A stretch of 64,000 bases of DNA from Actinobacteria bacterium IMCC25003 (GTDB lineage: Bacteria > Actinomycetota > Actinomycetes > Nanopelagicales > Nanopelagicaceae). Below are positions 23,713 through 51,279 of this stretch, one piece after another. The position numbers and the translations under genes are program-made. Every line of letters starts with the position of its first letter. Position 1 is the first letter of the stretch. The notes beneath the pieces were generated by a model, which made no database searches, was not told the origin of the DNA, and was given only the letters and a program-made list of their open reading frames with translations. The stretch is from NCBI GenBank assembly GCA_002284855.1, contig CP015603.1:1054001-1118000 (forward strand), read 5' to 3'.

Positions 23713-23831
23713 TCCTTCACGCACTTGCAGCTGCACAATGAGTGCACCTACCTGGTCGTCACCCGGAGCACCCCACCGCGGTGGAGGGTTGCCGTCTCAT
23801 CAGCCGGGGCTATCGATGAGAACTCGTGACC
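23713..23831 (-). promoter_or_regulatory. SAM-IV riboswitch upstream of metX
   Basis: On the minus strand the region begins GGTCACGAG and contains AGCCCCGGCT and CGGCAACCCTCCA. It then has GCGGTGGGGTGCTCCGGGTG and GACGACCAGG. This matches my memory of the conserved core of actinobacterial SAM-IV aptamers, and an additional stem-rich 3' part follows. The gene downstream is metX, a standard target. A TAATAT -10 box at 23844-23839 puts the transcript start at about the first base of the element. The metX Shine-Dalgarno lies within or right beside the 3' end. Confidence 0.88.
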
Positions 23832-27677: not shown

Positions 27678-28594
27678 CGCATTACCTTTTCTACTGCGAC
27701 AGATAATTGCTTAATCAAATCTGGAGTACGCGGACCGAATGAGAGCAGCAACGAATCATCGACGGCTACAACGCGCCTATTTTTTCCAGCTTCTGTTTGA
27801 GCAACTCCAGGTAGTTGCACCAAGCCATCTACTCCACCGACAGAGGCCAAACCTTTCGACATCACGAGAATGAGGTCAGGATTGAGAGAAATCATCAACT
27901 CGCTCGTCATAGGCGTAAAGGGCTGCGCAAACTTGTTAGCACCAACATCTACTGCACCAATCGCCTGCATCAATGAATCCGCTCCCGAACCTTGTCCGCC
28001 GATGAGATAGATGGCGCTACCCCCGCGGAGATATAGAAATGCTATCCGTACTTTCTTGAGAGTCTCATTTTCTGCTCCTTGTAAAACTTCTGCAAACTTT
28101 TGATTGAGAAGCGAACCGCCCTGCGGCGTTCCAATTGCTTGAGCCACAGCTTTGACCTTCGCGGGAATATCAGCCAAAGTCCATGCCTCTGGAATATTTA
28201 CAACAGCTATCCCAGCACTTCGTAGAGATGCAAGCGCTGAAGCGGGTCCTGTTGATTTATCAATGATGACCAGATCTGGATTCATCGAAATAATCTTTTC
28301 TGCAATCACTTGGTGTCCTGATGTGACAATGGGGATTGATTTCAAGTCTTTATCCGTACTCGCTATATCGCGCCCGACTAGTAGAGATTTCAAACCCAGT
28401 GCAGAAATTATTTCCGCCGATCCATTTGCGAGCGCAATGACTCGCTGCGCCATTGGTGTTTCGGCGTTCTCAATCTGAAGGCTCTGCGCACTATTGATCT
28501 GCTCGAGAGTTGGGGCAGTTGCACCACACCCAGTGAGTGCGATCAGAGTGATTGTGGCAACAGAAAGTGCCACAAATCCCTTGGTTTTACGCAT
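27674..28594 (-). CDS. Substrate-binding lipoprotein of the FecBCD-type importer, HmuT-like
   Basis: 306 residues. A lipoprotein signal peptide ends at the lipobox LTGC (near residue 23). The class III binding-protein fold follows, with NGSAEIISALGLKSLLVGRD and MNPDLVIIDKSTGP. The opening segment resembles actinobacterial heme-binding HmuT, but cobalamin or siderophore binding is not excluded. It is the first gene of a three-gene operon. A 7-bp inverted repeat (28619-28643) lies 24 bases upstream. Confidence 0.82.
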   Translation of the reverse strand: MRKTKGFVALSVATITLIALTGCGATAPTLEQINSAQSLQIENAETPMAQRVIALANGSAEIISALGLKSLLVGRDIASTDKDLKSIPIVTSGHQVIAEKIISMNPDLVIIDKSTGPASALASLRSAGIAVVNIPEAWTLADIPAKVKAVAQAIGTPQGGSLLNQKFAEVLQGAENETLKKVRIAFLYLRGGSAIYLIGGQGSGADSLMQAIGAVDVGANKFAQPFTPMTSELMISLNPDLILVMSKGLASVGGVDGLVQLPGVAQTEAGKNRRVVAVDDSLLLSFGPRTPDLIKQLSVAVEKVMR

Positions 28595-47787: not shown

Positions 47788-47911
47788 TGTTATCTCTCAT
47801 CCGGACTTTAACCGTCGGTCTCAGAATTTCACTGAGTCAACCGCCCATTGGATATGTGCGGGTCGCGGACTATAACCGCCGGTTCGAAATTACATCGACC
47901 CCGATAACAAC
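47788..47911 (-). promoter_or_regulatory. FMN riboswitch (RFN element) of the riboflavin operon
   Basis: Minus-strand segments match the RFN consensus: TTATCGGGG at the 5' side of P1, CCGGCGGTTATAGTCCGCGA, GGCGGTTGACTCAGTGAAAT, and GACCGACGGTTAAAGTCCGG followed by ATGAGAGATAAC. It sits directly upstream of ribD. A TAGACT -10 box (47923-47918) sets the transcript start near 47911. The 3' end is close to the ribD start, so translational control is likely. Confidence 0.95.
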
Positions 47912-48010
47912 ACCATGAGTCTACTACTTATCCACATATGCGGAAAATTCATACTTAACGAGGCGTTGAAACACCTATTTTTCGCCCACTTCATCTCCTG
48001 ATCTCAATGG

Positions 48011-48075
48011 GCTCCGTCACTGACTTCCCCCAGCAATTCCGCAAGATTCATTGCGGATGAGAGAAGGGAGGAGCT
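48011..48075 (+). promoter_or_regulatory. Structured leader that could hide the ribosome-binding site of a small ORF
   Basis: CTTCCC (48024-48029) can pair with GGGAGG (48066-48071), the Shine-Dalgarno of the small frame at 48076. GCTCC (48011-48015) can pair instead with GGAGC (48070-48074). Between them TCCGCAA/TTGCGGA (48038-48057) is a perfect 7-bp hairpin. The alternative pairings suggest a switch, but this is inference. Confidence 0.35.
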
Positions 48076-48189
48076 ATGAAGGCGTCAGATGTTCTCGAAA
48101 TTGTTTCGTGCGTTTGCAGATTGATATTTCTAATTTTAGAAATTGAAAGTGCCCGCCGCGACAACGACGGGCACTCGGATACTTCCTAG
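48076..48189 (+). CDS. Possible 37-residue small protein
   Basis: ATG at 48076 is preceded by the strong sequence GGGAGGAGCT. The frame reads MKASDVLEIVSCVCRLIFLI and continues with LEIESARRDNDGHSDTS, then TAG. The centre is hydrophobic (about residues 8-22) with two cysteines. I recognise no family. Its 3' part overlaps the minus-strand terminator and hairpin region, so it may instead be a chance frame. It could also be a leader peptide. Confidence 0.3.
   Translation: MKASDVLEIVSCVCRLIFLILEIESARRDNDGHSDTS
48141..48174 (-). terminator. Rho-independent terminator, minus strand
   Basis: GTGCCCGTCG and CGGCGGGCAC (48174-48149 on the minus strand) form a 10-bp stem with one G-U pair, followed by TTTCAATTTC. 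It marks the 3' end of a minus-strand transcript from the hairpin region. No minus-strand protein gene lies between it and the nrdJ terminator. Confidence 0.65.
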
Positions 48190-48327
48190 CCGAAGTTGGG
48201 CACCGTTCTGAGAAAGCTCAGGGCGGTGTTCCATTTTTAGCAACGAGGCCGGTAGCCACCTTCGAATTGAATCAAAGCTGACTTTCCGGCCACCAGATGC
48301 GAGTCCTCAGAGGCACATCTGTTCGTT
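48149..48327 (-). ncRNA. Candidate structured non-coding RNA of unknown family
   Basis: A TATCTT -10 box (48340-48335, minus strand) would start a transcript near 48327 that ends at the terminator 48149-48174, about 180 bases. In order it holds these stems: CAGATG/CATCTG (48321-48294), GGCCGG/CCGGCC (48291-48247) with a long internal region, CACCGCCCTGAG/CTCAGAACGGTG (48228-48201), ACTTC/GAAGT (48196-48181), and the terminator. Five consecutive stems with little coding signal support a functional RNA. Strand and ends are inferred; promoter evidence is weak. Confidence 0.4.
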
Positions 48328-48395
48328 AGGAGAAAAGATAGCACCCTCCTCAGACTTCGACCTAGATAGATGGTGTTTCCATCGACCTAGAAAAG

Positions 48396-48433
48396 AGAAA
48401 TCCCCCGACCAGTAACCAAGTCGAGGGATTTCT
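48396..48433. terminator. Bidirectional terminator downstream of nrdJ
   Basis: AGAAATCCCCCGAC (48396-48409) pairs with GTCGAGGGATTTCT (48420-48433), with a 10-base loop. A T-run follows on the minus strand (TCTTTTCTAG) and a shorter one on the plus strand. It ends the nrdR-nrdJ transcript 18 bases past the nrdJ stop and could also end a plus-strand RNA. Confidence 0.85.
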
Positions 48434-48450
48434 TTACTAACAGTTACTTA

Positions 48451-51279
48451 TTAGCTGCAACCAGATGTGTTTCCACAACCTTCGCATACGAAGCAAGCAC
48501 CTGACATACGCATCTTCACGCCACATGTCATACAGAGTGGTGCATCAGATTTGATTCCCATTGATTCTAGGAGATCAGATGATGAACCAATCGTTGCTGC
48601 GAGTGGAGCAGCTGGTGCTGCTTCAATCTTTACCTCGACTGGCTTACTTGCAGCCGCAGGAGCCGCCACAACCGCAGGTGCTTTTGGGGTATCAGCACTC
48701 GCAACAGGTGCATATTCGCCACCGTTATCGAGAGCTGCTGCGCGCTCTGCTGCTGTGTAGAGACCCATTGCTGAACGCTGTTCGAATGGAAGGTAATCAA
48801 GTGCCAAGCGACGGAAGATGTAATCCATCATTGACTGTGCGATGCGGATATCTGCATCATCTGTCATACCTGCTGGTTCGAAGCGCAAGTTTGTGAACTT
48901 CTCTACGAATGTCTCGAGAGGTACTCCGTACTGAAGTCCGATCGATACAGCGATTGAGAATGCATCCATGACGCCAGCAAGAGTTGAACCCTGCTTACCG
49001 AGCTTCAAGAAGACTTCACCAAGTGCACCATCAGCGTATGCACCAGCGGTCATGTAACCCTCTGCGCCTCCGACTGAGAATGATGTTGTTGTTGCAGGAC
49101 GTGACTTAGGAAGGCGCTTACGTACTGGTGTTGAGATCTCTTCTTCAACAACAGCTTCCTTCTTCTTAGCCTTTCCATCTGAAAGTGGCTGACCGACCTT
49201 GCAGTTATCGCGGTAGACAGCGAGAGCCTTAAGACCGAGCTTCCAACCTTCGTAGTAGACCTGCTCAACTTCTTCAACAGTCGCGTCCTCAGGAAGGTTT
49301 ACTGTCTTTGAAATTGCGCCTGACAAGAATGGCTGGCAAGCAGCCATCATGCGGACGTGGCCCATTGGAGCGATTGAACGTGCACCGAGTGCACAGTCGA
49401 ATACGTCGTAGTGCTCTGGCTTAAGCCCTGGCGCATCGATGACGTGTCCATTTGCAGCGATGAATTCAACGATCGCTTCGATGGTCTCTTCGGTGTAGCC
49501 GAGCTTACGGAGAGCCTGTGGAACTGTCTGGTTAACGATCTGCATAGATCCGCCACCGACAAGCTTCTTGAACTTAACCAATGAGAAGTCAGGTTCGATA
49601 CCAGTTGTATCGCAATCCATCATCAAACCGATTGTTCCTGTTGGTGCAAGAACTGAGATCTGCGCGTTGCGCCATCCGTTCTTATCGCCGATTGTGAGGC
49701 ATGCATCCCACGCCTTATTTGCTTCTGCCCATACATCGATATCGAGTGTGGTTTCTTGCTTTGCAGCAGATGAAGCAGCAGCGTGCTTACGCATAACGCG
49801 AGCATGTGCTGATGCGTTACGTGCGAAGCCGTCGTATGGTCCAACAATGCCAGCGAGTTCTGCTGAGCGCTTGTATGTAACACCTGACATAAGAGATGTG
49901 ATTGCGCCAGCTACTGCACGGCCGCCTTCTGAGTCGTATGCAAGACCTGATGCCATAAGGAGTGCACCGAGGTTTGCATATCCGATTCCGAGCTGACGGT
50001 ATGCACGAGTTGTCTCGCCAATTGCCTCTGTTGGGAAGTCAGCGAAGCAGATTGAAATATCCATCGCAGTGATGATCATTTCAGCAGCCTTTGCAAATGT
50101 CTTTGCATCGAATGAACCATCTGCCTTGAGGAACTTCATCAAGTTCAGTGAAGCCAAGTTACATGATGAGTTATCGAGTGACATGTACTCAGAGCAAGGG
50201 TTCGACGCATTGATGCGACCTGTCTCTGGGTTTGTGTGCCAATCGTTGATGGTGTCGTCGTACTGGATTCCAGGATCAGCACATGCCCATGCAGCTTCTG
50301 CCATCTTGCGGAAGAGCTTGCGAGCATCTGTCGTCTCGATAACTTCGCCAGTTGAGCGAGCCTTGAGACCGAATTCAGTTCCTGCTTCGTATGCACGCAT
50401 GAACTCGTCGCTGACGCGGACTGAGTTATTTGCATTCTGATACTGAACAGAGATGATGTCTTTTCCACCGAGGTCCATATCAAAGCCAGCATCGCGAAGT
50501 GCGCGAATCTTCTGCTCTTCAGAGACCTTTGTTTCGATGAATTCTTCGATATCTGGGTGATCTACATCGAGAACAACCATCTTTGCAGCGCGACGGGTTG
50601 CGCCACCAGACTTAATTGTTCCTGCAGATGCATCAGCACCACGCATAAATGAAACTGGCCCTGAAGCTGTTCCACCTGACTTAAGAAGTTCCTTTGAAGA
50701 ACGGATACGTGAAAGGTTAAGGCCGGCACCAGATCCGCCCTTAAAGATCATTCCTTCTTCGCGATACCAGTTAAGGATTGAATCCATAGTGTCATCAACA
50801 GACAAGATAAAGCATGCAGATACTTGCTGTGGGGCAGCAGTTCCGACGTTAAACCAAACCGGTGAGTTGAAAGAGAAGATTTGGTGCATGAGCATATGTG
50901 TGAGTTCGTGCTCGAAAATTGTTGCATCCTTATCAGTTGCAAAGTAACCGAATTCTTTTCCGGCCTTTGTATATGTAAGGACTACGCGATCGATGACCTG
51001 CTTGAGAGACCATTCGCGATTTTCGGCACCGACTGCGCCACGGAAGTACTTGGTTGTAACGATCGTTGAAGCGTTCACTGACCAGAAGTCAGGGAATTCA
51101 ACGCCGCGTTGTTCGAAAACAACTTCGCCAGTCTTCCAATTCTGTTGAACAACATCGCGACGATCCCATGTGACTGTGTCATAAGGATGTACGCCTTCTG
51201 TTGTGTAAATACGTTCGACTGTAAGTGCCTTTCCGCCCTTAACCTTCGAAGTTGGTCGATTGATGACCGTATCTGACAT
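48451..51279 (-). CDS. nrdJ: Adenosylcobalamin-dependent (class II) ribonucleotide reductase
   Basis: 942 residues. It makes deoxyribonucleotides using vitamin B12 and needs no oxygen. Seen: FNSPVWFNVG and VSACFILSVDDTMDSIL near the N-terminal active-site cysteine, GGSGAGLNLSRIR, NPCSEYMSLDNSSCNLASLNL with the radical cysteine region, and LAPTGTIGLMMDCDTTGIEPD. The C-terminus ends in a zinc-ribbon-like CMTCGVKMRMSGACFVCEGCG with redox cysteines. An Ala/Pro linker precedes it. It lies 3 bases downstream of nrdR. As the RNR seen here, it makes dNTP supply dependent on cobalamin. Confidence 0.97.
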   Translation of the reverse strand: MSDTVINRPTSKVKGGKALTVERIYTTEGVHPYDTVTWDRRDVVQQNWKTGEVVFEQRGVEFPDFWSVNASTIVTTKYFRGAVGAENREWSLKQVIDRVVLTYTKAGKEFGYFATDKDATIFEHELTHMLMHQIFSFNSPVWFNVGTAAPQQVSACFILSVDDTMDSILNWYREEGMIFKGGSGAGLNLSRIRSSKELLKSGGTASGPVSFMRGADASAGTIKSGGATRRAAKMVVLDVDHPDIEEFIETKVSEEQKIRALRDAGFDMDLGGKDIISVQYQNANNSVRVSDEFMRAYEAGTEFGLKARSTGEVIETTDARKLFRKMAEAAWACADPGIQYDDTINDWHTNPETGRINASNPCSEYMSLDNSSCNLASLNLMKFLKADGSFDAKTFAKAAEMIITAMDISICFADFPTEAIGETTRAYRQLGIGYANLGALLMASGLAYDSEGGRAVAGAITSLMSGVTYKRSAELAGIVGPYDGFARNASAHARVMRKHAAASSAAKQETTLDIDVWAEANKAWDACLTIGDKNGWRNAQISVLAPTGTIGLMMDCDTTGIEPDFSLVKFKKLVGGGSMQIVNQTVPQALRKLGYTEETIEAIVEFIAANGHVIDAPGLKPEHYDVFDCALGARSIAPMGHVRMMAACQPFLSGAISKTVNLPEDATVEEVEQVYYEGWKLGLKALAVYRDNCKVGQPLSDGKAKKKEAVVEEEISTPVRKRLPKSRPATTTSFSVGGAEGYMTAGAYADGALGEVFLKLGKQGSTLAGVMDAFSIAVSIGLQYGVPLETFVEKFTNLRFEPAGMTDDADIRIAQSMMDYIFRRLALDYLPFEQRSAMGLYTAAERAAALDNGGEYAPVASADTPKAPAVVAAPAAASKPVEVKIEAAPAAPLAATIGSSSDLLESMGIKSDAPLCMTCGVKMRMSGACFVCEGCGNTSGCS

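Follow-up and report, generated by a model that had tools for sequence, protein, structure and literature searches.

The window, a 64,000-nucleotide stretch of the Actinobacteria bacterium IMCC25003 genome, contains an interval (47912-48450) that lies between an FMN riboswitch and the nrdJ stop codon (48451). The flanking genes, ribD and nrdJ, are both on the minus strand. The FMN riboswitch is an Rfam match (RF00050; 47785-47912, minus) that directly adjoins the element described here, but it belongs to ribD and is separate from the element. The hairpin at 48396-48433 is the nrdJ terminator and is likewise separate. Further inverted repeats occur at 48148-48175, 48126-48143, and 48038-48057. 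The minus strand of the interval folds with a z score of -8.4, a stability equaled by none of 100 shuffles, and plus-strand folding is weaker (z of -5.6 against shuffles). A preliminary description had called the interval hairpin rich, which these values bear out. It had also matched the interval to no known RNA family, and this held up: Rfam covariance models, at gathering and at relaxed thresholds, gave only chance-level scores in 47900-48480. Over the whole window, Rfam found only the FMN riboswitch and a SAM-IV riboswitch (23716-23831, minus, 97.9 bits), and no tRNA or tmRNA was found in the window.

In relatives, the nrdJ-ribD interval is a slot of variable content, about 225 to 370 nt long in some species and filled with other ORFs in others. 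In three genomes (G002, G014, and G047; loci L005, L028, and L029) the slot carries unrelated ORFs or is nearly empty; one such ORF resembles a carbonic anhydrase, and another a small exported helical protein. Where the slot resembles that of the window, the conserved core is a plus-strand ORF of 37 codons at 48076-48189. The preliminary description had proposed comparison with relatives as a check on function, and we found that both sequence and pairing are conserved.

The ORF encodes a 37-aa peptide, MKASDVLEIVSCVCRLIFLILEIESARRDNDGHSDTS, with one predicted membrane helix. The preliminary description had recognized no protein gene in 47912-48450, but this ORF is conserved as a protein in many relatives. 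Close pairs give a pN/pS of 0.41 for the reading frame of the ORF and of 0.84 and 1.78 for the two alternative frames; by this measure, the small ORF evolves as a protein under purifying selection in frame. It is preceded by a strong ribosome-binding site, GGGAGGAG (48066-48073), which is conserved as GAGAGAAGGGAGGNG. Of 135 genomes in the genus, 32 carry homologues of the peptide by profile search, and others occur in further genera. A broader profile matched 49 of 296 genomes of the family at an E value of 0.01 or less, of which the weakest may be chance. In a 395-genome sample of the class, matches at an E value of 1e-4 or less were confined to Nanopelagicaceae genomes.

Members of the peptide family are 30 to 39 aa long, and nearly all have a maximum 15-residue hydropathy of about 1.9 to 2.7. 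They share the pattern E-x(4)-R-R, with Glu22, Arg27, and Arg28 invariant among 22 aligned members. The C-terminal tail contains arginine and is not consistently basic; the net charge is negative in the window's copy. The peptide is thus less than 60 aa long with a membrane helix and charged C-terminal residues, as type I toxins are. It had no match among the curated protein families searched (Pfam, NCBIfam, and known type I toxins). Weak single matches of other members, for example to KdpF, were judged to be composition effects. A search of viral contigs, phages, and plasmids for the element gave no match. By these searches, the small ORF represents a family that is absent from Pfam and NCBIfam and spread through the Nanopelagicaceae.

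The mRNA of the small ORF is expected to start near 47988, downstream of a predicted plus-strand -10 element (TATTTT, 47976-47981) that appears as TAnnTT or a close variant at the same place in relatives. A scan with the sigma-70 consensus recognized no promoter, this -10 included; therefore, our promoter assignments rest on comparison. Transcription would end at an intrinsic terminator predicted at 48198-48231 (plus) and supported by comparison.

Between the predicted start and the ORF is a structured leader (47989-48073, plus), defined by its predicted fold, covariation, and the covariance model R2. The ribosome-binding site lies in a basal helix (47989-48006 paired with 48058-48073) that encloses two hairpins, H1 (48008-48032) and H2 (48038-48057). 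Every intact copy is preceded by such a leader, about 90 nt in length, in which H1 and H2 accompany a basal helix able to enclose the ribosome site. H1 and H2 covary. In group 1, both partners of several base pairs differ in 5 or 6 of 13 sequences, and in groups 2 and 3 such double changes are seen in up to 4 of 16. The loops, GATCCGTCAC or CCGCCAGCG, are near invariant and lie beside the ribosome site. R2 matched the window at 47981-48078 with an E value of 7.7e-26, a value that includes the presence of the window sequence itself in the R2 training set. A second R2 match in the window (27932-28021, E value of 0.56) and a weak leader match in unrelated sequence of another genome (G116, E value of 1e-3) were taken as chance.

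All strong matches to the leader models R1 and R2 are directly upstream of the small-ORF family, and more distant leaders in another genus likewise precede a short hydrophobic ORF. We rejected the leader as a riboswitch, since the same aptamer was not seen before different genes of one pathway and all strong matches stand before one ORF family. The leader energy shows no asymmetry between strands (15 to 17), and alone it does not tell which strand is used. Concealment of the ribosome site in mRNA structure is common in type I toxin-antitoxin systems and not universal. Here, occlusion of the site exceeds that of shuffles in most of groups 2 and 3 but not in group 1; for the window leader it is 0.67, compared with 0.74 in shuffles. 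A diverged version of the element in two genomes of another genus (G310 and G316; L164 and L165) shares the GATCCGTCA loop of the leader and has a strong terminator on the plus strand; the codon hairpin described below is apparently missing from it.

On the minus strand, comparison points to an antisense RNA of about 190 nt, running from about 48328 to 48138 and complementary to the 3' part of the mRNA; its ends are inferred. This sequence folds with a z score of -6.5. Its predicted extended -10 element, TGCTATCTT, is at 48343-48335 (minus), and all 15 group 1 members have TAnnnT at the equivalent position, the anchors having been placed by eye and no -35 element having been recognized. In groups 2 and 3, TATATT or TGCTTTAAT stands at the corresponding place. 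Near the 5' end of the proposed RNA are two hairpins, A and B (48240-48325, minus), which are nearly identical in five related species only. They are more stable as minus-strand RNA in all five of these relatives. The same segment contains, on the minus strand, CTCGCATCTGGTGGCCGG, which agrees in 16 of 17 bases with the plus-strand TTCGCATCTGGCGGCCG that follows the stop codon in group 2 copies.

The probable terminator of the antisense RNA is a third hairpin, Pb (48148-48175, minus), followed on that strand by TTTCAATTTCT. Pb lies within codons 25 to 34 of the small ORF, inside the codons for ARRDNDGH. The U-tract after it is modest, and it is weak in diverged genera (for example, at L137). 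A G-U pair on one strand corresponds to an A-C mismatch on the other. Since wobble pairs therefore differ by strand, the strand that uses a hairpin can be told. Comparison showed the mRNA terminator and Pb each to be preferentially stable on its own predicted strand: in predicted stability, 39 of 40 members favor the plus strand for the hairpin that follows the stop codon (sign P of 8e-11), and 34 of 37 distinct members favor the minus strand for Pb (sign P of 1e-7). These probabilities are indications and overstate independence, because the members are related by descent. The preference of Pb has the same direction in six shortened, probably untranslated copies.

We also compared Pb with synonymous recodings of the ORF. 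Its minus-strand stability exceeds that of recodings made with local codon usage, with a z score of -23.5; the strands differ by 4.7 kcal/mol, compared with an expected difference of 0.4 ± 0.4 kcal/mol. The two arms change together in relatives (synonymous permutation P of 1e-4). Linked changes are Ala GCC with Gly GGG, Ala or Thr GCT/ACT with Glu GAG, Asp GAT with Asp GAT, and Gly GGT with Asp GAC. They alter amino acids on both sides of the hairpin together.

The preliminary description had proposed a minus-strand RNA from 48327 to 48149. Nearly the same ends are supported by the -10 element, hairpins A and B, and Pb. What it missed was the role of this RNA as the antisense partner of a plus-strand gene; partnership with a conserved small gene explains most of the hairpins. 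A stand-alone minus-strand noncoding RNA, with an incidental plus-strand ORF, would also account for the preferential stability of A, B, and Pb on the minus strand. However, in-frame purifying selection acts on the ORF, its ribosome site is conserved, a leader and a terminator of its own accompany it, and most relatives have it without hairpins A and B. We regard this already disfavored explanation as highly improbable. A possible 7-base match between the antisense RNA and the H1 loop was compatible with chance and was dropped.

Truncated copies of the element show nine distinct junctions (one common to G151 and G041, two in G137, and one each in G127, G301, G310, G052, G105, and G313). All nine have lost the promoter, the leader, or N-terminal codons, and all have kept the codon hairpin, the mRNA terminator, the antisense -10 element, and the right-hand palindrome. 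A further copy, at a second locus in G297, has lost both sides. Among the strong leader matches, none occurred without the downstream part. This one-sided loss is as expected if the product of the left half were costly and the right half harmless or useful.

The small ORF might instead encode a harmless, regulated membrane protein, in which case the leader would be a sensor (riboswitch or thermosensor) and the antisense RNA would only tune the protein's level. Two covarying hairpins with near-invariant loops beside the ribosome site would suit such a sensor. However, unlike most aptamers, the leader has its strong matches before one ORF only. The gene also has a patchy distribution with duplications, and it has been inactivated repeatedly from the putative toxin side while the antisense half was kept, a pattern more in keeping with a costly product than with a useful one. 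We therefore consider a harmless protein unlikely.

We think it probable that the element represents a new family, a candidate for type I membership, that acts in the manner of a convergent toxin-antitoxin pair. Comparison shows conservation of four parts (ORF, leader, mRNA terminator, and minus-strand hairpin), and we infer that both RNAs are made. In this scenario, a plus-strand mRNA running from about 47988 to the terminator at 48198-48231 would carry the two-hairpin leader and encode the 37-residue single-helix peptide, and the leader structure would hold the mRNA. The antisense RNA (about 48328 to 48138) would cover the mRNA terminator, the stop codon, and the last codons, and it would end at the hairpin written into the peptide's own codons. 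By pairing with the mRNA, it may repress it through RNase III cleavage or blocked translation. Excess peptide may harm the membrane when this control fails. On balance, we also lean toward a more specific proposal: an Actinomycetota type I-like family in which the antitoxin's terminator hairpin is overprinted on the C-terminal codons of the toxin and steers the amino acids there, together with a separate structured leader that could be a release sensor.

In Gram-positive type I systems, convergent RNAs overlap at their 3' ends, and the peptide has fewer than 60 residues, a membrane helix, and a charged C terminus (PMC6563280, PMC8167048, PMC4147584). The predicted peptide features and the predicted 3' overlap fit this description; comparative evidence suggests that the antisense RNA gene overlaps the toxin-like mRNA, as in a type I pair. 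TxpA/RatA and BsrG/SR4 of Bacillus subtilis are convergent, with a 3' overlap of about 75 to 120 nt (PMC4147584). The present pair resembles them in combining the mRNA of a single-helix peptide with a convergent antisense RNA, over a predicted overlap of about 90 to 100 nt. It differs in its leader fold and its phylum, in having no sequence homology detected to curated families, and in that the terminator-like hairpin of the antisense RNA lies in ORF codons. In the par locus of pAD1 (Fst/RNAII), a single bidirectional terminator serves both RNAs, and their overlap stops short of the coding region (PMC4147584, PMC8167048). Fst/RNAII is also convergent, and its peptide is likewise small, hydrophobic, and of comparable size, whereas the element described here has two predicted terminators and an overlap that would enter the ORF.

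According to a 2025 paper, type I systems had been recorded in Proteobacteria, Firmicutes, and Tenericutes only; the paper proposes MsoT1/MsoA1 of Microcystis, the toxicity of which was tested in E. coli, as the first from cyanobacteria (PMC12390103). MsoT1/MsoA1 resembles the present pair in being proposed as type I from beyond the classical phyla; it is cyanobacterial and its toxicity has been assayed, whereas the present pair is predicted by sequence comparison. We found no report of a type I system from Actinobacteria among the titles and abstracts listed in a search of literature that covers only a minority of subscription papers. If our reading is correct, a convergent pair in the Nanopelagicaceae, a family of streamlined freshwater bacteria, would extend type I systems to the Actinomycetota and would show that very small genomes retain such toxin-antitoxin modules. 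An antisense terminator overprinted on codons, with linked amino acid changes, would be a clear natural case of RNA structure constraining a protein. The strand asymmetry test can reveal other unannotated pairs.

Sequence motifs also recur toward the ends of the element. A DnaA-box-like sequence, TTATCCACA (47928-47936, plus), lies about 40 nt upstream of the plus-strand -10 element. The box recurs in nearly all copies as (T)TATYCACA or with one or two bases changed, whatever the neighboring genes; in nearly every copy, TTATCCACA or TTATTCACA stands about 90 to 120 nt upstream of the ORF. The recurrence of end motifs, the different genomic contexts in different species, and the tandem copies in G037 and G301 would suit a miniature mobile element with fixed ends (TTATYCACAG on the left and GTTACTCNGAGTAGTTTC on the right) that happens to carry the pair. 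However, each genome has only one or two copies, and the element persists vertically at nrdJ-ribD in several species. No transposase, terminal inverted repeats, or target duplications were seen in the copies examined, short of a base-by-base comparison of filled and empty sites. We consider this explanation very unlikely as an alternative to the toxin-antitoxin pair, although spread and toxin-antitoxin function can go together. The palindrome GTTACTCNGAGTAGTTTC is at the far end of group 3 copies (for example, L099 and L101), and CTACTTTAAGTAA is at that of others. The far-end palindrome may be an operator or an element end.
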